From contig NZ_SPDV01000001.1 in NCBI RefSeq assembly GCF_004564275.1, positions 124,001-188,000 on the forward strand: a stretch of DNA of 64,000 nucleotides, written 5' to 3'. Source of the stretch: Sphingomonas parva (ex Maeng et al. 2020) (GTDB lineage: Bacteria > Pseudomonadota > Alphaproteobacteria > Sphingomonadales > Sphingomonadaceae). The notes below the pieces were generated by a model, which was given only the letters and a program-made list of their open reading frames with translations, did no database searches and had not been told where the DNA came from. Below are positions 17,216-64,000 of this stretch, piece after piece. A program made the position numbers and the translations under genes. How positions within the stretch are numbered: the first letter of the stretch is position 1; each line of letters begins with the position of its first letter.

Positions 17216-17860
17216 ATGGTGCAGCGTCTTCAGCTCCGATGTCATCCGGACACACCGAGCGGCGCGTTCGATGCGGTAATGGTCGACGTGCGGCGAAACG
17301 GCGGCAGGCAAGGCGCGCGGCGGCTCTCCGTCCGTTACGTCCTGTCGGGAAATCTGCGGGCCCTGAAGGCGCCGCAACACGTCACGCAGAAGGCCCGGGC
17401 CGACGATCTCTGGCGCCATACCTGCTTCGAGGCGTTCGTCAGGGTCGGCGCGAGCCGGACCTATCACGAGTTCAACCTGGCGCCGTCCGGTGCCTGGTCC
17501 TGTTACCGTTTCGACGACTATCGCAGCGGCATGCAGTCGGAGAAATATGTCGGTTCGCCCGCCATCGGCACCTTCATCCACAACGATTCCGTGGATGCCG
17601 AGCGCGCCGAGGAGCTCGCCCGCATCGGCCTCGACGGCCTCGAGAACGTGCCCGCACCCTTCTTTCTGCTCACCGCGACGCTCGACATGGAGGAAACCCG
17701 GCTGCCGCTCGACGAGCCCTGGCATCTCGGCCTCTCCGCGGTGATCGAGGAACGGAACGGCACGATCTCCTACTGGGCGCTGAACCATCCACCCGGAGAC
17801 CCGGATTTCCACCATCCGGATTGCTTTGCGCTCGAACTTGCCCCAGCGAGGCCCGCATGA
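17216..17860 (+). CDS. DOMON-like domain protein
   Basis: The 214-residue protein resembles the DOMON-like proteins common in sphingomonads: LSVRYVLSGNL, a central DLWRHTCFEAFVRVG..TYHEFNLAPSGAWSCYRFDDYRSGM segment, and the C-terminal ISYWALNHPPGDPDFHHPDCF strand pair. DOMON folds bind haem or sugars; which applies here is not visible from sequence. There is no signal peptide. Its stop overlaps the start of the NamZ/DUF1343 gene (ATGA), suggesting a two-gene operon and a shared role, perhaps cell-wall sugar handling. An earlier start is possible in the same open frame, but the ATG at 17216 fits the family length. Confidence 0.8.
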   Translation: MVQRLQLRCHPDTPSGAFDAVMVDVRRNGGRQGARRLSVRYVLSGNLRALKAPQHVTQKARADDLWRHTCFEAFVRVGASRTYHEFNLAPSGAWSCYRFDDYRSGMQSEKYVGSPAIGTFIHNDSVDAERAEELARIGLDGLENVPAPFFLLTATLDMEETRLPLDEPWHLGLSAVIEERNGTISYWALNHPPGDPDFHHPDCFALELAPARPA

Positions 17861-19056
17861 AATTCGGAATCGACCGCCTTCTCGCCGACCCTGCGCTGCG
17901 TGCGCCTCTCGAGGGGCGCCGCGTCGCGCTTGTCGCGCACCCGGCATCCGTCACCGAGGATCTTCGCCACAGCCTCGATGCGCTCGCCGCCTGCGACGGC
18001 ATCAAGCTCAGTGCCGCTTTCGGCCCGCAGCACGGCCTGCGCGGCGACAAGCAGGACAACATGGTCGAATCGCCGGACTTCAACGATCCGGTTCACGACA
18101 TCCCCGTCTTCAGCCTCTATGGCGAGGTTCGCCGTCCCACCGGCCAATCGATGGGCACGTTCGACGTGGTGCTGGTCGATCTCCAGGACCTCGGCTGCCG
18201 GATTTACACCTTCATCACCACCCTGCTCTACATCCTGGAGGCGGCCGCCCAGCACAAGAAGGCGGTATGGGTGCTCGATCGTCCCAACCCGGCGGGGAGG
18301 CCGATCGAGGGAACGACGCTGAAGAGCGGCTGGGAGAGCTTCGTCGGCGCCGGGCCGATGCCGATGCGCCACGGCCTGACCCTGGGCGAGCTCGGCCGCT
18401 GGTTCATCGACACGATGAAGCTCGACGTCGACTATCGGGTCATCGAGATGGAGGATTATCGCCCCGACGAGGCGCCGGGCTTCGGCTGGCCGACCGACCG
18501 TGTGTGGATCAATCCCAGTCCGAACGCGCCCAACCTCTCCATGGCCCGGTCCTACGCCGGCACCGTCATGCTCGAGGGCGCCACATTGTCCGAGGGGCGG
18601 GGCACCACGCGCCCGCTCGAGATCTTCGGCGCGCCGGATATCGACGCGCGGGCCGTGCTCGCCGAGATGCGTCGCTTCGCCCCGCAATGGCTCGCGGGCT
18701 GCGCCTTGCGCGACATCTGGTTCGAACCGACTTTTCACAAGCATGTCGGACAGTTGTGCAGCGGCGTTCACATCCATCCCGAAGGTCGCTTCTACGATCA
18801 CGAGGCGTTCCGCCCGTGGCGGCTGCAGGCCCTCGGCTTCAAGGCGATCCGCCGCCTGCAGCCGGATTATCCGCTGTGGCGCGACTTCCCGTACGAATAT
18901 GAGTTCGGGAAGCTCGCCATCGACGTGATCAACGGCGGCACCGGCCTGCGCGAATGGGTCGACGATCCGGCCTCGACGCCGGCCGACCTCGAGGCGCTCG
19001 CCGGCCCCGACGAGCAGGCCTGGGCGGAAGAGCGTGCGCGCTACCTCCTCTACTGA
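17857..19056 (+). CDS. DUF1343 / exo-beta-N-acetylmuramidase NamZ family protein
   Basis: The 399-residue protein belongs to DUF1343, whose founding characterised members (NamZ) remove terminal MurNAc from peptidoglycan chains. Family features are GRRVALVAHPASV, FGPQHGLRGDKQDNM, FSLYGEVRRPT, LVDLQDLGCRIYTF, WVLDRPNPAGR, and WINPSPNAPNL followed by ARSYAGTVMLEGA.LSEGRGTTRP. No export signal is visible (MKFGIDRLLAD...), so this copy is probably cytoplasmic and may act in MurNAc recycling, unlike secreted homologues. It is coupled to the upstream DOMON-like gene by a 4-bp overlap. Confidence 0.88.
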   Translation: MKFGIDRLLADPALRAPLEGRRVALVAHPASVTEDLRHSLDALAACDGIKLSAAFGPQHGLRGDKQDNMVESPDFNDPVHDIPVFSLYGEVRRPTGQSMGTFDVVLVDLQDLGCRIYTFITTLLYILEAAAQHKKAVWVLDRPNPAGRPIEGTTLKSGWESFVGAGPMPMRHGLTLGELGRWFIDTMKLDVDYRVIEMEDYRPDEAPGFGWPTDRVWINPSPNAPNLSMARSYAGTVMLEGATLSEGRGTTRPLEIFGAPDIDARAVLAEMRRFAPQWLAGCALRDIWFEPTFHKHVGQLCSGVHIHPEGRFYDHEAFRPWRLQALGFKAIRRLQPDYPLWRDFPYEYEFGKLAIDVINGGTGLREWVDDPASTPADLEALAGPDEQAWAEERARYLLY

Positions 19057-19066
19057 GGCACGCCGG

Positions 19067-19095
19067 TTGTGCGGAAGGCGGGAACAGGGTAATTT
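19067..19095 (+). promoter_or_regulatory. Weak promoter candidate for the 51-aa peptide gene
   Basis: TTGTGC (19067-19072) and TAATTT (19090-19095) are separated by 17 bases, and the ATG is 29 bases further on. Each box matches the sigma-70 consensus at only three of six positions, so this is suggestive only. Confidence 0.25.
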
Positions 19096-19124
19096 GCGCC
19101 GCCTGGCAAGACGAGGAGGCGAGC

Positions 19125-19280
19125 ATGAGCGAACCGACACCCTCTGCGGACCGCGAAGAGCCCACCCCCGTACCGAGCGAACGAGCGCCCTGGCAGCCGC
19201 TGGGCTATGACAAGATCGCCGCCGCTGACGCCGAAAACAGCGCTTCCTCGGGCAGTCCCGACGGTACCACCTACTCCTGA
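19125..19280 (+). CDS. 51-aa peptide, candidate RiPP-type precursor of the adjacent modification genes
   Basis: This small gene has a strong Shine-Dalgarno (GAGGAGG, 6-7 bases before ATG). The N-terminal half is Pro/Glu-rich. Residues 21-31 (APWQPLGYDKI) resemble the short W/Y-x-P-L type leader motif bound by PqqD-like recognition domains. The C-terminal part is small-residue-rich (AAADAENSASSGSPDG) and ends T-T-Y-S, with a C-terminal serine. HprK-like kinases in paeninodin-type lasso clusters phosphorylate the precursor's C-terminal Ser, and an HprK-like kinase and a PqqD protein lie just downstream. The precursor role is inferred from context and motif; no homologue is recognised. Its stop overlaps the convergent oxygenase gene by 10 bp. 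Confidence 0.65.
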   Translation: MSEPTPSADREEPTPVPSERAPWQPLGYDKIAAADAENSASSGSPDGTTYS

Positions 19281-20533
19281 TCGGTGAGCCCCGCTGCCCG
19301 GAGCAGCGCGGGATCGAGGTCGCGCGGACGCGATTCGCGGGTCGGCTTGACGTCGAACGTCACGACCACCCGATCTCCGGGTGCGTTCGTCGCATGGACG
19401 TGATGGTAGAAATAGCCGGGAAAGAGCAGGAGCAGGCCAGGCTCGGGCTTCAGCGTCAGGACCGGCCAGATGTCGCTGCCGCTCGGGAGCTTGCGCCCTG
19501 GCGGAGCGAACTCGACGCAGCCCTCCTTGCCCACCATGCCCTTCGGAACATCGACGTAATAGACCCCGCTCAGCCAGGTGCAGGCATGGGTGTGCGGCGC
19601 GACATAGCCTTGGCGGGGCGTGATCACCGTCTCGCTGTGCAGCCATGTGCCGCTCGGCTTGCTGCGCCGCTGGAGGATTTCGCCGGAGGCGGCGAGCCAT
19701 TGCTCGTAATCGGCTTGCTGCGCATCGAACGTGCGGAGCAGGGCAGCGCTCGCCGGCGCGCCGGCCTCGCCGCGGGCTGCGATCGCGCCTTGCAGGCCTC
19801 CCGGCAGCCGGAAGGCGCCATGGACGACGTCGGCCGCGGCGATCCGGCTCGGCACGGCGCCGAGCGATTCCTGCTCCGCGCGAAGCGCCGCGTGAAAGCT
19901 GTCCAGCGAGTCGAAGCCCTCGGGAGCTTCAGGGTGGACGCGCCTCAGCAGGCGATCGTAATCGAGCAACGTTGCGAGCGTGCGCCGGCGGCCGAGCAGG
20001 GCAAGTGCGATCGTGTACTGGGCGAACAGCCAACCGCTCGGCGCCATTCGTTCCAGGGCCGCTTCGCAATGGCGCGCAAGGGCGGCGCCGTCGCCGCGGC
20101 GGATCAGCGCCTGGCCTACCCCTCGGGTGAGATAGGGGCTGGTGGGATCGAGCGCGAAGCCGCGTTCGAAGACCGCATCGGCGCGCTCTTGCTCTCCCCG
20201 CGTGCGCAGCGCGAATCCGAGCGCCGCGTGCACGGCGGCGTCGTCCGGGGCCAGCGCGAGCGCCTGCTCGCCGGCGGCGACCGCGCCGTCGACATCCCCG
20301 ATCTCGAGCAGGGACGTGGCGAACGCCGCCCAGGCGGTCGCATCGTCGGGTGCGGCGGCGACCACGTTGCGCCACGCGCCCGGTGCCCGCTGTCGGTTGT
20401 TGCTGCGCATGCAGGCCTGGGCGAAGCGGCGCGCCGCGGTCAGGTCGTCCGGTGCGGCAGCGGCGGCCCCAGCGAGCAGCTCCAGGACCGCGCTTTGTGC
20501 GCGGGTGCGCTCAACCTCGGCGAGATAGGTCAT
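19271..20533 (-). CDS. TPR-containing putative 2OG-Fe(II) oxygenase
   Basis: The 420-residue protein starts with TPR-like helices (about 25-180; repeats such as AWAAFATSLLEIGDVDGAVAAGEQALALAPDDA). It ends in a 2OG-Fe(II) oxygenase fold (about 285-400). Likely iron ligands are in APHTHACTWLSGVYYVDVP and FPGYFYHHVHA, with an Arg for 2-oxoglutarate in GDRVVVTFDV. This matches the Oxy_5 type often fused to TPRs. The ATG at 20533 is preferred because GGGGAG lies 7 bases upstream. It is divergent from the kinase gene (67-bp gap) and tail-to-tail with the 51-aa peptide gene. Peptide hydroxylation is a plausible role, not demonstrated. Confidence 0.85.
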   Translation of the reverse strand: MTYLAEVERTRAQSAVLELLAGAAAAAPDDLTAARRFAQACMRSNNRQRAPGAWRNVVAAAPDDATAWAAFATSLLEIGDVDGAVAAGEQALALAPDDAAVHAALGFALRTRGEQERADAVFERGFALDPTSPYLTRGVGQALIRRGDGAALARHCEAALERMAPSGWLFAQYTIALALLGRRRTLATLLDYDRLLRRVHPEAPEGFDSLDSFHAALRAEQESLGAVPSRIAAADVVHGAFRLPGGLQGAIAARGEAGAPASAALLRTFDAQQADYEQWLAASGEILQRRSKPSGTWLHSETVITPRQGYVAPHTHACTWLSGVYYVDVPKGMVGKEGCVEFAPPGRKLPSGSDIWPVLTLKPEPGLLLLFPGYFYHHVHATNAPGDRVVVTFDVKPTRESRPRDLDPALLRAAGLTDQE

Positions 20534-20600
20534 CGGTAGCTCCCCCGCGGGCACCGTCCGGCGCTTGTGATGGACCGGAGGCGAGGATATTCTTCGCGCC

Positions 20601-21584
20601 GTGGACTGCCAAGGCCCGGTTCTCGATCGGGGCACTCACCCGGCTTCCGGCACCTGGCGCTACCGCGCCTTCGGCCTCACCATCGCGTCGCAGGTCCCGC
20701 TTCCGCAACTGGCGGCGTGCGCGACCGGTGGCACGGCCGACCTCGTCGTTGCGCTGGGGCAGGTCGAGCCTGGCTTCGAGTCACGCCCAGGCTACCGGCG
20801 CGGCCGGATCTACGACCAATTCCGCTACGAGGCGGTCGACGGGGTTCGGATCGTGGTCGAGCCTCTCCCCGGCTCCTCGCCCTCGAACATCGCCGACGGG
20901 CTGATGAGCCGGGTTCTCACCGCCGCGCTCTATCAGCGCGGGCTGCTGCCGCTGCACGCGAGCGCGGTAGTCCTCTCGGAAGGGGCAATCGCCGTGGCCG
21001 GGCCGTCGGGGGCCGGCAAGTCGACGCTGGCCGCGATGCTCGCCCGGCAGGGCGGCCGCGTCCTCGCCGACGACATGCTGGTGCTTGCCGACGATGTCGA
21101 TCCGCGGTGTGCCTGGGGCGGGGCAGGGGGGCTGAAGCTCACCACCGGCTCGCTGGGGACGATCGGACGGGGCAGCGAGGGCCTCGCCCTGGCCAATACC
21201 GCCGAAGGAAAATACTTCCTGCCGATGGCGGCGGAGGCATCGGCGCAGCCGGTGCCGATCACCACGTTGATCTGCCTTCGCGAAGGGCCGCCGGCGCTCG
21301 AAACCGTGCCGCCGTTTCGCGCGCTCGCCGAGTGGAAGCATCGCGTGAAGATGCCGGAGCTGATCGAGAATGCGCCCTGTGCGCAGACGCTCTTTCGTCG
21401 ATGGCTCGATTTCGTCGGGGCGGCGCGGGTCGTGATGGTGTCGCACGGCAGGGACATGGCGGCGCTCGCAGCCATTGCGCAGCGTCTCCCGGGCGAGTGC
21501 GGTCGACACGGCGAACATCCGGAAGGGGGAGGAGAAGACGATGGACCAATTCTCCAGCGACATGGAAGTCCAGCGCAGGCCTGA
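20601..21584 (+). CDS. HPr kinase/phosphorylase C-terminal domain-like kinase
   Basis: The 327-residue protein, GTG start, has an N-terminal small domain (YRAFGLTIASQVPLPQL) and an HprK-C-like P-loop kinase domain. This has LPLHASAVV near 118, Walker A GPSGAGKST near 133, and the conserved Asp pair in VLADDMLVL near 155. It lacks the full N-terminal regulatory domain of true HPr kinases and there is no HPr/PTS gene nearby. This kinase type is found next to PqqD-like and lasso/RiPP genes, where a member (paeninodin cluster) phosphorylates the peptide's C-terminal Ser. No good ribosome site lies close to the GTG. The 3' end overlaps the PqqD gene by 44 bp. Confidence 0.82.
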   Translation: MDCQGPVLDRGTHPASGTWRYRAFGLTIASQVPLPQLAACATGGTADLVVALGQVEPGFESRPGYRRGRIYDQFRYEAVDGVRIVVEPLPGSSPSNIADGLMSRVLTAALYQRGLLPLHASAVVLSEGAIAVAGPSGAGKSTLAAMLARQGGRVLADDMLVLADDVDPRCAWGGAGGLKLTTGSLGTIGRGSEGLALANTAEGKYFLPMAAEASAQPVPITTLICLREGPPALETVPPFRALAEWKHRVKMPELIENAPCAQTLFRRWLDFVGAARVVMVSHGRDMAALAAIAQRLPGECGRHGEHPEGGGEDDGPILQRHGSPAQA

Positions 21585-21828
21585 GATCCTGCACTCGCGG
21601 GTCGACGACGCGGTCTACGCGCTCGACACGGCCTCGGGCGCCTGCTTCGCCTTCCATGGGCCGAGTGCGCGGCTGTGGGAGCTGCTCGGGGAGCCGATCA
21701 CCCCGGCCGCAGCCGCCCGGCGCCTGGTCGAGCAGTACCAGATCGACGAGGAGAGCTGCAGGCGGGAGGTCGCCGATCATTTCACCAGCCTTCATGGGGA
21801 AGGGCTGATCGTCGCGACCGGCCGCTGA
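21541..21828 (+). CDS. PqqD-family peptide chaperone / RiPP recognition element
   Basis: The 95-residue protein matches PqqD-type RRE proteins: a beta N-terminus (DDAVYALDTASGACFAFHGPSARLWELLG, residues 23-50), then a helical half with EQYQIDEESCRREVADHFTSLHGEGLIV. PqqD-like proteins bind leader peptides and deliver them to modifying enzymes. The start at 21541 follows GGAGGAGAAGACG. It sits inside the tail of the kinase gene and 8 bp before the GT8 gene, so kinase, PqqD and transferase form one operon. Confidence 0.85.
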   Translation: MDQFSSDMEVQRRPEILHSRVDDAVYALDTASGACFAFHGPSARLWELLGEPITPAAAARRLVEQYQIDEESCRREVADHFTSLHGEGLIVATGR

Positions 21829-21836
21829 CTCGAGCG

Positions 21837-23132
21837 ATGGCGGGCCCGATCGACGTCGCTTTCTGCTTCGACGACCACCTCGCGCTTCCCGGCGCGATCG
21901 CGATCCTGTCCTTGCTCGAGAGCCGACGGGAAGACGTTCGGCTGCACGTGCTGACCGACCCCCGCCTGGCGGCCGCACCATTGCTGCGTACGATTGCCGG
22001 TCGCCATGGCGTCTCGCTCAGGATCATCGACGCCGCACCGGAAAGCCGCGAAACGCTCGACGCGACCAGCGCCTACGGCCTGCCCTCGCTCGCGACCTAC
22101 CGGCGGATATTCCTCGGCGAGTTGCTGCCGGATCTCGACCGCATCCTCTATCTCGACGCGGACGTGCTGGTGCGGCGCTGCCTGTCAGCCCTCTGGACGC
22201 TTCCGCTCGACGGCAGGACGCTGGCGGCGGTACCCGATCCCTGGATGATCACCTTGCCCGCGGTGCGGGCGGAATTCCCCGACGGCTATTTCAACGCCGG
22301 GGTTCTTCTCCTCGATCTCGAGCGCTGCCGGACGGAGCGGCTGTCGGCGCGATGCCTGGGCGAGATCCGGCGGCGGCAGGAAGAGGCGGCGGCGCGCGGC
22401 GCGACGGCCTTGTCGTACAGCAACGAGCAGACGCCGCTCAACGCCTGCCTGCGCGACGACTGGAAGGCGCTTCCCCCCTTGTGGAACTTCACCGGATTGC
22501 ACGGCCCGCGCCTGGCCGGACTGCTCGGCATCCCTGGTGGCGAGCTCGCCGCAATTTCGGCCGATCCGGCGGTCGTGCATTTCCTCGGTGCATACAAGCC
22601 GTGGCTCGACGGGGTCGAGGGCCTGAGCCCGTGGCATGTCGCCTACCAGGCGTGGCGGGATCGGCTAGAGCGGGAATATGGCACCGGTGGCCTGGCCTGG
22701 CCGGGCGCGTTCACCAACGGCGCCGCCGCGGTGCGGGCGCGGCGGCTGATGGCGCTGAGGCTGGTGCACGCCGCGCGGACGCGCGGCATGGCGCATCCCG
22801 CCGTCGTGCTCACCGGCCTGCTCGGGCGCGAGATCGCGATCGTCGCGGCCGAGCAGGGGCTGAGCCTTTCGTGCTTCGCCAGCGATAATCCGCTGTTCTC
22901 GGGCGGCAGTCTCGACGGCATCCCGATCGTCTCGATCGCCGAGGCGGTCGCAGCCGGCTGTTCGGAGTTCATCCTCGGGGACTACCGGCGGCTCGACTGG
23001 AGCAAGGCGGGCGTGCGCGCCGCCGCCCGGGACGCGCCAGGGCTGCTGCACATGGTCGCGCTGGACGGCGAGAGCCGGTTCAGACCTTGCGGGTCAGCGT
23101 CCGCATCGCCTGGTCCAGCCCTTCCAGCGTGA
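21837..23132 (+). CDS. GT8-type glycosyltransferase with extra C-terminal domain
   Basis: The 431-residue protein has a GT8 (LgtC-like) fold: AFCFDDHLALPGAIAILSL at the start, DxD in LYLDADVLVRR near 105, PDGYFNAGVLLLDLERC, SNEQTPLNA near 196 and HFLGAYKPW near 248. These are the usual metal, sugar and nucleotide elements for a retaining UDP-sugar transferase. Residues about 300-415 form a second alpha/beta segment (HPAVVLTGLLGREIAIVA..., DGIPIVSIAEA, CSEFILGD) resembling a Rossmann-type nucleotide-binding unit. In this operon a peptide or phosphopeptide acceptor is possible; an LPS role is the alternative. The 3' end overlaps the convergent VWA gene by 53 bp. Confidence 0.83.
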   Translation: MAGPIDVAFCFDDHLALPGAIAILSLLESRREDVRLHVLTDPRLAAAPLLRTIAGRHGVSLRIIDAAPESRETLDATSAYGLPSLATYRRIFLGELLPDLDRILYLDADVLVRRCLSALWTLPLDGRTLAAVPDPWMITLPAVRAEFPDGYFNAGVLLLDLERCRTERLSARCLGEIRRRQEEAAARGATALSYSNEQTPLNACLRDDWKALPPLWNFTGLHGPRLAGLLGIPGGELAAISADPAVVHFLGAYKPWLDGVEGLSPWHVAYQAWRDRLEREYGTGGLAWPGAFTNGAAAVRARRLMALRLVHAARTRGMAHPAVVLTGLLGREIAIVAAEQGLSLSCFASDNPLFSGGSLDGIPIVSIAEAVAAGCSEFILGDYRRLDWSKAGVRAAARDAPGLLHMVALDGESRFRPCGSASASPGPALPA

Positions 23133-24258
23133 GCGGATACATCCGGTCCTGCATCAGCTGGCGAATCATCTGGGTGGACTGGGAATAGCCCCAATATTGC
23201 TCCGCCGTCGGGTTGAGCCACACGGCCGAGGGGTAGGTGGTCACCATTCGCTGCAGCCAGGTCGCGCCCGCTTCCTCGTTATAATGCTCGACGGATCCGC
23301 CGGCGTGGCTGATCTCGTACGGGCTCATCGCCGCATCGCCGACGAACACGAGCTTGTAGTCGTGGCCGAACTTGTGGAGCACGTCCCAAGTCGGTGTCCG
23401 CTCGCTGAACCGCCGCCGGTTGTCCTTCCACAGGCTCTCGTAAACGCAATTGTGGAAGTAGAAGAACGCGAGGTTCTTGAACTCGGACGTGGCGGCCGAG
23501 AACAATTCCTCGCAGAGCGCGATGTGGGGATCCATCGATCCGCCGACGTCGAGGAAGAGCAGGAGCTTCACGGCATTGTGGCGTTCCGGGCGCATCTGGA
23601 TGTCGAGCCAGCCGCGCCGGGCGGTGCCGTCGATCGTGCCCTCGAGGTCGAGCTCCTCGGCCGCGCCTTCGCGGGCGAAGCGGCGTAACCGGCGCAGCGC
23701 GACCTTGATGTTGCGCGTGCCGAGCTCGCGCGCATTGTCGAGGTTCCGGAACTCGCGCTTGTCCCACACCTTGAGCGCGCGGCCGTGCCGGCCCTCGCCG
23801 CCGATCCGCACGCCCTCCGGAGTGTAGCCGCCGTGGCCGAACGGGGAGGTGCCGCCGGTGCCGATCCACTTGCTGCCGCCCTGGTGGCGCTCCTTCTGCT
23901 CCTCCAGCCGCTTCTTCAGCGCCTCCATGATCTCTTCCCACGAGCCGAGCGACTTCACTTCCTCCATCTGCTCGGGCGTCAGATAGAGCTCGGCCAGCTT
24001 GCGCAGCCATTCCTCCGGTATCGGCACCGCGTCCGGCCCGTAGTCCGCTTCGATGCCCTTGAAGACCTTGGCGAACACCTGGTCGAAGCGATCGAGCAGC
24101 GCCTCGTCCTTCACGAAGGTCGCGCGGGCGAGGTAATAGAATTCCTCCGGCCGGGTGGAGATCACCTCGGCGTCGAGCGCCTCGAGCAGGGTGAGATGCT
24201 CCTTGAGGGACGCCGGGATGCCGGCGCTGCGGAGCTCATCGACGAACGAGAAGAACAT
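23080..24258 (-). CDS. CoxE-like von Willebrand factor A domain protein
   Basis: The 392-residue protein matches the COG3552/CoxE-type VWA family: an all-helical N-terminal half (FVDELRSAGIPASLKEHL...) and a central linker with SPFGHGGYTPEGVRIGG. A VWA domain follows with a MIDAS-type DVGGSMDPH (D-x-G-x-S in place of D-x-S-x-S) and later VFVGDAAMSPYEI. Such proteins usually work with a MoxR AAA+ ATPase in cofactor or metal insertion; no MoxR gene is adjacent here. The C-terminus overlaps the glycosyltransferase gene tail by 53 bp. Confidence 0.88.
   Translation of the reverse strand: MFFSFVDELRSAGIPASLKEHLTLLEALDAEVISTRPEEFYYLARATFVKDEALLDRFDQVFAKVFKGIEADYGPDAVPIPEEWLRKLAELYLTPEQMEEVKSLGSWEEIMEALKKRLEEQKERHQGGSKWIGTGGTSPFGHGGYTPEGVRIGGEGRHGRALKVWDKREFRNLDNARELGTRNIKVALRRLRRFAREGAAEELDLEGTIDGTARRGWLDIQMRPERHNAVKLLLFLDVGGSMDPHIALCEELFSAATSEFKNLAFFYFHNCVYESLWKDNRRRFSERTPTWDVLHKFGHDYKLVFVGDAAMSPYEISHAGGSVEHYNEEAGATWLQRMVTTYPSAVWLNPTAEQYWGYSQSTQMIRQLMQDRMYPLTLEGLDQAMRTLTRKV

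Positions 24259-62470: not shown

Positions 62471-64000
<1,530 letters not shown>

Follow-up and report, generated by a model that had tools for sequence, protein, structure and literature searches.

The 64,000-nucleotide stretch of Sphingomonas parva contig NZ_SPDV01000001.1 analysed here (the window) carries five tightly packed genes at positions 19125-23132, all with intact reading frames, which we studied as a candidate cassette for tailoring a ribosomally synthesized and post-translationally modified peptide (RiPP). The first gene (19125-19280, + strand) encodes a precursor-like peptide of 51 amino acids (aa), with an ATG start and an AGGAGG 5 nt before it. It overlaps tail-to-tail by 10 nt with a gene on the - strand (19271-20533) for a 420-aa protein that matches several tetratricopeptide repeat (TPR) models and the 2-oxoglutarate (2OG) oxygenase domain 2OG-Fe(II)_Oxy_5 (PF13759, 1.3e-16). 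On the + strand follow the genes of a 327-aa HprK-like peptide kinase with a GTG start (20601-21584), of a discrete PqqD/B1-like protein that is a putative leader-binding RiPP recognition element (RRE; 21541-21828; PF05402, 8.6e-10), and of a GT8-family glycosyltransferase (21837-23132; PF01501, 1.8e-32, residues 82-258), whose C-terminal part has no domain assignment. An earlier note on this DNA had placed all five genes as the open reading frames (ORFs) of the window do. Its description of the last three as an overlapping operon was right for the kinase and PqqD genes, which overlap by 44 nt, and had to be corrected for the GT8 gene, which starts 8 nt past the PqqD end without overlap. At its other end the GT8 gene overlaps the neighboring CoxE gene tail-to-tail by 53 nt. 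Codon-position G+C shows the pattern of coding genes in all four enzyme genes. A promoter and terminator scan of the locus gave no signal clearly above chance.

The match of the kinase to Hpr_kinase_C (6.8e-4, 19.7 bits) is below the cut-off of 33.3 bits, and so its assignment rests on its relatives, its conserved residues and a structure model. The matches to TIGR04355 (2.7e-8) and TIGR04352 (6.2e-8) were also below cut-off. The 14 best matches outside its own gene, found in 13 genomes and on contig C35 of the same genome, were 31-41% identical over the aligned part. The kinase retains H119, G134, G137, G139, K140, S141, D157 and D158, the same eight residues, with identical spacing, as those listed for BsfK of the Bradymonas Bsf lasso cluster (PMC10368454). 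A model built from an alignment of 5 (predicted local distance difference test, pLDDT, 72.7; predicted template modelling score, pTM, 0.73) matched PEPCK structures (E from 1.2e-8) and HprK/P (1kkl, 3.9e-5). Judged by sequence and model, the protein is an intact kinase of the type that occurs in lasso clusters, and its predicted fold is that of PEPCK/HprK. A tree of 65 kinase domains, which has long branches, grouped it with the kinases of two loci fetched from relatives (L190 and L194; support 99/96) and placed it outside the main kinase clade of the genus, as it did those of L077 and L080. Scanning genome contigs with the kinase sequence gave 40 pattern matches, none of which was confirmed, and scanning them with an alignment gave at least four distant kinases.

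The PqqD protein matched two NCBI models of lasso PqqD proteins (NF033536, 7.4e-9, and a second model, 3.1e-6), both below their cut-offs, and far more weakly the HPr-rel-A PqqD model TIGR04353 (0.0033). Among solved structures it matched TfuB1 (6jx3, 3.1e-5) and TbiB1 (5v1u, 3.4e-5), which we take to be lasso B1 proteins. By these matches it is an RRE of the lasso type, which would bind a leader peptide. An RRE and a peptide kinase that are both of lasso type support the proposal of a RiPP-like tailoring system, for which a linear product is plausible. Assignment of the locus to the HPr-rel-A system was rejected, with the PqqD protein at 18.3 bits against a TIGR04353 cut-off of 35 and the kinase at 32.1 against 200.

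The best solved match of the GT8 protein was the LgtC galactosyltransferase (1ss9, 1.6e-15, residues 6-167), and by eye we read in it what we take to be the DxD and HxxGxxKPW motifs of its family. A structure model made without an alignment was discarded (pLDDT 39.9). No GT8 relative was matched in 25 other genomes of the genus, and four other genomes of the 397 searched in the family had one (L099-L102). These four were rejected as relatives of the cassette, since the stretches fetched around them, one of which lies near a contig end, contained neither kinase nor RRE. The LgtC match, since LgtC has a role in lipopolysaccharide (LPS) synthesis, is one argument for the view that there is no peptide pathway here and that the substrate of the kinase, PqqD and GT8 proteins is an envelope polymer or a protein, the small ORF being incidental. 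The weak matches to the HprK-related A and B models, the atypical codon-position G+C of the small ORF and the 15 lone kinases among the 42 family loci from other genera speak for it as well. We consider this view improbable, because the PqqD protein fits the HPr-rel-A PqqD model far less well than it fits lasso RREs, the peptide gene has a strong ribosome site and sits within the inserted segment described below, and the neighboring genes scanned, NamZ, CoxE-VWA and the next gene (a methyl-accepting chemotaxis protein, MCP), do not belong to LPS or exopolysaccharide synthesis.

The window peptide has the leader WQPLGYDKIAAADAE, with a Trp at residue 23. When this Trp is numbered 1, the peptide shows K8, I9, A11, A14 and E15, followed by a core with D-G and a C-terminal Y-S. 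Precursors at related loci share W-x-x-P, often with a basic residue and an aliphatic one 7-8 positions past the Trp, an A-E or similar pair near positions 14-15, an Asp 7-9 residues later and a C-terminal Ser; the peptides of L122 and L192 end in other residues. The conservation of this Ser is biased upward, because the filter used for precursors favored S/T/G ends. The window peptide agrees with its relatives at these positions, including the spacing from W to A-E and the C-terminal Ser, except at the Pro. The relatives have W-x-x-P, not the W-x-P-L that the earlier note had offered as the motif to look for.

A position-specific scoring matrix (PSSM) was made from 14 precursors, with the window peptide left out, after the resemblance had been noticed. 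Among 20,611 frames it ranked the window peptide 26th, and among the 952 of the window first. The higher-ranking 25 frames were the 14 trained on (one of which, at L113, adjoins an RRE and a cyclase and no kinase), two duplicates, four siblings of these and five others, which stand in the kinase loci L175, L181, L184, L157 and L165. In an ungapped comparison with a peptide of the Tistrella locus L183, which was picked out after the likeness had been seen, 10 of 29 residues were identical, an identity reached by 296 of 100,000 shuffles, and by 420 of 100,000 when each shuffle was compared with the best of four precursors of the same length. The two tails are alike (DGTTYS in the window, DGTGYS in L183), and by eye Tyr and Ser likewise stand at the ends of the peptides that accompany the two nearest kinases (..NAYS in L190, ..AYDS in L194). 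In 26 genomes of the genus, a peptide search gave only weak matches outside its own locus (best E 0.024); the match with the longest identity, on contig C12 of genome G013 (L083), was rejected, having no kinase or PqqD relative nearby. These sequence comparisons make it likely, short of proof, that the peptide is homologous to the precursors of the relatives.

The cassette is bordered on the left by the gene of NamZ, an exo-beta-N-acetylmuramidase (17848-19056, + strand; PF07075, 2e-70; PF20732, 1.4e-41), and on the right by that of a CoxE-type VWA protein (23080-24258, - strand; PF05762, 6.6e-9), both outside it. CoxE was present in all 26 genomes of the genus searched, including this one, and its 3' side was fetched for 20 of the 25 others (L197-L216). 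NamZ stands tail-to-tail with CoxE within 5 kb in 14 of these 20 regions; the two genes almost touch in three of the 20 (L198, L200 and L208), with other DNA between them in the rest. The junction (19057-23079 in the window) is a variable site of the genus that measures between a few tens of bases and 4.5 kb, and its genes differ by species. The five genes fill the 4.0-kb gap of the window. None of the 20 regions gave a tblastn match at 1e-8 to the window kinase, RRE, GT8 or oxygenase, and the frames in 13 of the 20 gaps (11 NamZ-CoxE, two TyrRS-CoxE) had no match to our own hidden Markov models (HMMs) of kinase, RRE, cyclase and B2. The G+C content of the cassette is 0.705, which no 4-kb stretch of the window exceeds and 3 of 240 reach, compared with 0.683 and 0.665 in its 5-kb flanks. 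Since the cassette fills a junction that is almost empty in three congeners, it appears to have arrived as a unit, and a single acquisition probably brought the peptide together with the enzymes. The TPR/2OG protein, a possible hydroxylase, may belong to the pathway, as its place in the shared insertion suggests. Oxygenases occur in other kinase loci, with PF13640 at 8e-11 in L194 and at 1.2e-4, below the cut-off, in L119, and L122 has a protein annotated as Asp/Asn beta-hydroxylase with no Pfam match.

With HMMs built by us from 9 proteins each, no lasso cyclase and no B2 peptidase were found in the whole 64-kb window. The absence of both, proposed in the earlier note, therefore stands for the cassette and the window and fails for the genome, whose lasso-type genes are split across two contigs. 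C17 (L113:7877-10390) carries a precursor with a W-x-x-P leader, an RRE and a lasso-type cyclase. C35 carries a kinase and an ABC transporter (L068:5840-8677) and, 28 kb further on, a B2 with an NTP_transf_5 protein (L112:9155-10757); this B2 is the single PF13471 match of the genome. PF00733 has eight matches in the genome, our cyclase HMM having been applied to the fetched C17 and C35 stretches, and its match on C35 is a cut-off Asn_synthase fragment at the very start of the contig. In the window itself, an ABC-transporter-like ORF about 40 kb from the cassette (62471-64000, - strand) matches our transporter HMM.

Both proteins could work in trans, the cyclase from C17 and the B2 from C35, so that either a linear or a lasso product could result. 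In a phosphorylated, glycosylated lasso made in trans, the precursor, RRE, kinase and GT8 of the window would work with these two proteins, and the ring would close on the Asp about 8 residues into the core. The presence of the whole set in the genome, including the NTP_transf_5 protein and the Asn_synthase fragment of C35, is in keeping with such a route, and so are the company of cyclases that the nearest kinases (L190 and L194) keep and the Asp that stands at a similar distance in precursors with and without a linked cyclase. Against this, the C17 cyclase has an RRE and a W-x-x-P-leader precursor of its own, four Tistrella loci with kinase and RRE likewise have no linked cyclase, and no result here shows cross-talk. 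We regard a lasso made in trans as rather unlikely.

The surroundings of related kinases were compared in stretches fetched around the top-scoring kinase matches, mostly with 7-8 kb per side and less at contig ends. They comprised 13 loci of the genus (L068-L080), 42 from elsewhere in the family (matches occurred in 111 of 397 genomes, and 40 of them were taken, together with L081 and L082), a class sample of 39 (42 of 385 genomes had matches, which yielded 40 stretches; L173, which lies in the family, was left out) and five plasmid loci (six of ten kinase matches were opened, and L120, which contains two short kinase fragments, was excluded). Two places were tallied twice (L119 = L155, L121 = L159); with these counted once and L173, which has a cyclase, added, there are 98 loci. 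A cyclase accompanied the kinase in 6 of 13 genus, 27 of 42 family, 26 of 39 class and 4 of 5 plasmid loci, and the kinase stood alone in 3, 15, 8 and none, respectively. Kinase, RRE and B2 without a cyclase were found in four genus loci (L072, L073, L077 and L080), in no family or plasmid locus and in one of the class sample (L179, near a contig end); cyclase absence is weak evidence in the genus loci because several of the contigs are short. Kinase and RRE with neither B2 nor cyclase, as in the window, were found in none of the genus or family loci, four of the class sample and one of the plasmid loci, and all of these are from Tistrella. Among the 98 loci, only four places besides the window have this arrangement (L121 = L159, L166, L171 and L183).

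A glycosyltransferase adjoins the RRE and kinase in three of these Tistrella loci: an annotated O-GlcNAc transferase (GT41-like) in L121, a GT41 protein (2e-30) in L166, together with CmcI- and TylF-type methyltransferases, and a GT2 protein (9.9e-34) in L183, together with a pyruvyl-transferase-like protein. For glycosyltransferases beside cyclase-free loci we claim no enrichment over the cyclase loci. Each of the three has W-x-x-P peptides ending in Ser. The fourth locus, L171, appears syntenic with L166 by eye, and the L121 kinase is 34% identical to the window kinase over 238 columns. The trio of kinase, PqqD and GT8, for which the earlier note had proposed a search together with a small ORF, thus did not recur as such in the genus (25 genomes) or the family (397 genomes); what recurs, in Tistrella, is kinase and RRE with another glycosyltransferase and a W-x-x-P peptide ending in Ser. 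The outcome of the proposed search thus speaks in part for the reading of the earlier note.

These tallies also bear on whether the cassette is the decaying remnant of a phosphorylated-lasso cluster that lost its cyclase and B2. Cyclase loci are the commonest relatives (63 of the 99 tallied, two of which were counted twice), a cyclase is likewise missing from the stretches fetched for L072, L073 and L077 (the first and the last of them on short contigs), and the L073 B2 is split over two frames, all of which would fit decay. The five intact and tightly packed frames, the conserved kinase residues and the coding-type G+C pattern of the four enzyme genes do not, and we give decay very little credence.

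Among published systems, the closest kind is the linear polyphosphorylated peptides (LPPs), whose linear products carry multiple phosphates on a Ser. The LPP family, described in 2026, uses the same kit without a cyclase, and its authors called LPPs and paeninodins restricted to Bacillota (PMC13381572). Its clusters have a Y-x-x-P leader, the nucleoside triphosphate (NTP) transferase LppN, the SpI-type peptidase LppS and an MsbA-like exporter, and the kinase LppK phosphorylates the third core residue rather than the C-terminus (PMC13381572). Like them, the cassette has a discrete RRE, an HprK-like kinase, an enzyme transferring a sugar or nucleotide and a small leader-bearing peptide, without a macrolactam cyclase. 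It differs in having a GT8 instead of an NTP transferase, a 2OG oxygenase, and a W-x-P leader that does not match the LPP motif YxxPxVLxHQxIxFETxxS; among its five genes Pfam shows no SpI-type peptidase or MsbA-like exporter, and an NTP_transf_5 protein lies on C35 instead. Since the motif, peptidase, exporter and NTP transferase of LPPs were not found in it, the cassette is not filed as an LPP; by analogy it looks like an alphaproteobacterial counterpart with a GT8 in place of the NTP transferase. The suggestion of the earlier note that the chemistry may be distinct is weakened, because the published Bacillota family uses the same principle (PMC13381572).

The phosphorylated lassos of the paeninodin and pseudomycoidin type share with the cassette a lasso-type RRE, a kinase of the same superfamily and a C-terminal Ser. 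PadeK phosphorylates this Ser on the linear precursor, SyanK of a Sphingobium repeatedly phosphorylates it, hexoses follow the phosphate through the action of PsmN, and in canucin a B1 protein aids the hydroxylase CanE (PMC9266682). The cassette differs from them in its lack of a linked cyclase and B2 and in having a GT8 rather than the nucleotidyltransferase-like PsmN. In the Bsf cluster the RRE protein BsfB1 speeds phosphorylation by BsfK, which acts on Ser3, and related phosphorylated lasso precursors in Sphingomonadales were noted (PMC10368454); unlike the cassette, that cluster has a cyclase, a B2, a transporter and a nucleotidyltransferase. The Tistrella loci resemble the cassette in combining kinase and RRE, without cyclase or B2, with a Ser-ending peptide and, in L121, L166 and L183, an adjoining glycosyltransferase; they differ in its type (GT41-like or GT2, not GT8), and where the cassette has the 2OG oxygenase they have methyltransferases or a pyruvyl-transferase-like protein. 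A partial literature search found no description of such a locus in Alphaproteobacteria, the Tistrella loci included.

On this evidence we propose, with a probability of roughly 0.5, that the five genes form a cyclase-free, LPP-like RiPP tailoring cassette that an alphaproteobacterium acquired as a unit. By analogy with the systems above, the RRE (21541-21828) would grip the 51-aa peptide by the W-x-P segment of its leader and present it to the kinase, which would phosphorylate a serine, most likely the C-terminal one. Which serine it would be is uncertain, because BsfK and LppK use the third core residue and not the C-terminus. The GT8 may then add a hexose, perhaps onto the phosphate, and the 2OG oxygenase may hydroxylate a residue. 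The cassette would make no ring, and removal of the leader would take place in trans, with the lone B2 of C35 as a possible enzyme for it.

Several observations weigh against this proposal. The leader has W-x-P, one residue short of the W-x-x-P of the relatives, and an HMM of 7 genus precursors did not report the window peptide at E 20. Of its 12.5 PSSM bits, the tail of seven C-terminal residues gives 13.2 and the leader gives -0.6, and the next frame below it is a chance frame at 10.3 bits, below which some likely precursors also score. The codon-position G+C of the peptide gene (0.63/0.65/0.75) is unlike that of the four enzyme genes, and the oxygenase gene, on the opposite strand, separates it from the kinase gene. 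No leader peptidase and no exporter were found by Pfam among the five cassette genes, to which that scan was confined. As far as tested, no GT8 relative stands beside any other kinase locus. Other contigs of the genome carry a cyclase and a B2, and the nearest kinases sit in cyclase loci.

More tentatively, the cassette may stand for a class of linear phosphoglycopeptide RiPPs in Alphaproteobacteria parallel to the LPPs, in which an RRE-guided HprK-like kinase would make a phosphoserine and an exchangeable glycosyltransferase (GT8 in the cassette, GT2 and GT41-like in Tistrella) would attach a sugar to it, yielding peptide-phosphate-sugar without a macrocycle, with hydroxylation here. If the cassette and its Tistrella analogues are such pathways, cyclase-free RRE/kinase pathways are wider than Bacillota and use true glycosyltransferases, and the addition of sugar after the kinase step, the question raised by PsmN and LppN, becomes approachable with well-known glycosyltransferase folds. 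Cyclase-less kinase/RRE clusters, overlooked by searches keyed to the cyclase, could then be pathways themselves.

Some of the other kinase loci had features of their own. In L080 (7008-9045, + strand), from the same genus, a kinase, an RRE and a B2 accompany two paralogous 44-aa W-x-x-P peptides, with no cyclase in the fetched 15 kb. The peptides end in ...ETAQATA and ...ETAQVTAP and have practically no core. A cut following Thr-Ala, presumed from the lasso Thr(-2) rule, would leave tetra- and pentapeptides whose third residue is Thr, and this is the position that is phosphorylated in Bsf and LPP. Products of that length, if the presumed site is right, would be too short to form a ring, which hints that linear products occur in this genus. 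A motif scan of 85,567 segments returned both L080 peptides (each in two overlapping loci) and four other matches. In the genus Tistrella, L185 (5734-10930) has two kinases, two sulfotransferases and a GT17-like protein; like L186 and L187, it is a kinase locus in which no RRE or cyclase was detected, and the three have W-x-R-P peptides ending in Cys-x-Ser. In L068 (3026-6760), L069 (2665-9208), L070, L071 and L074, none of which gave a detected RRE or B2, the kinase lies near a conserved protein of 180-odd aa, and all of these except L068 also have a cyclase and a W-x-x-P precursor. A family of long ORFs is found near the kinase in L068, L069, L070 and L074, not in L071, which is at a contig end, and its member in L068 matches trimeric-autotransporter models below their cut-offs.

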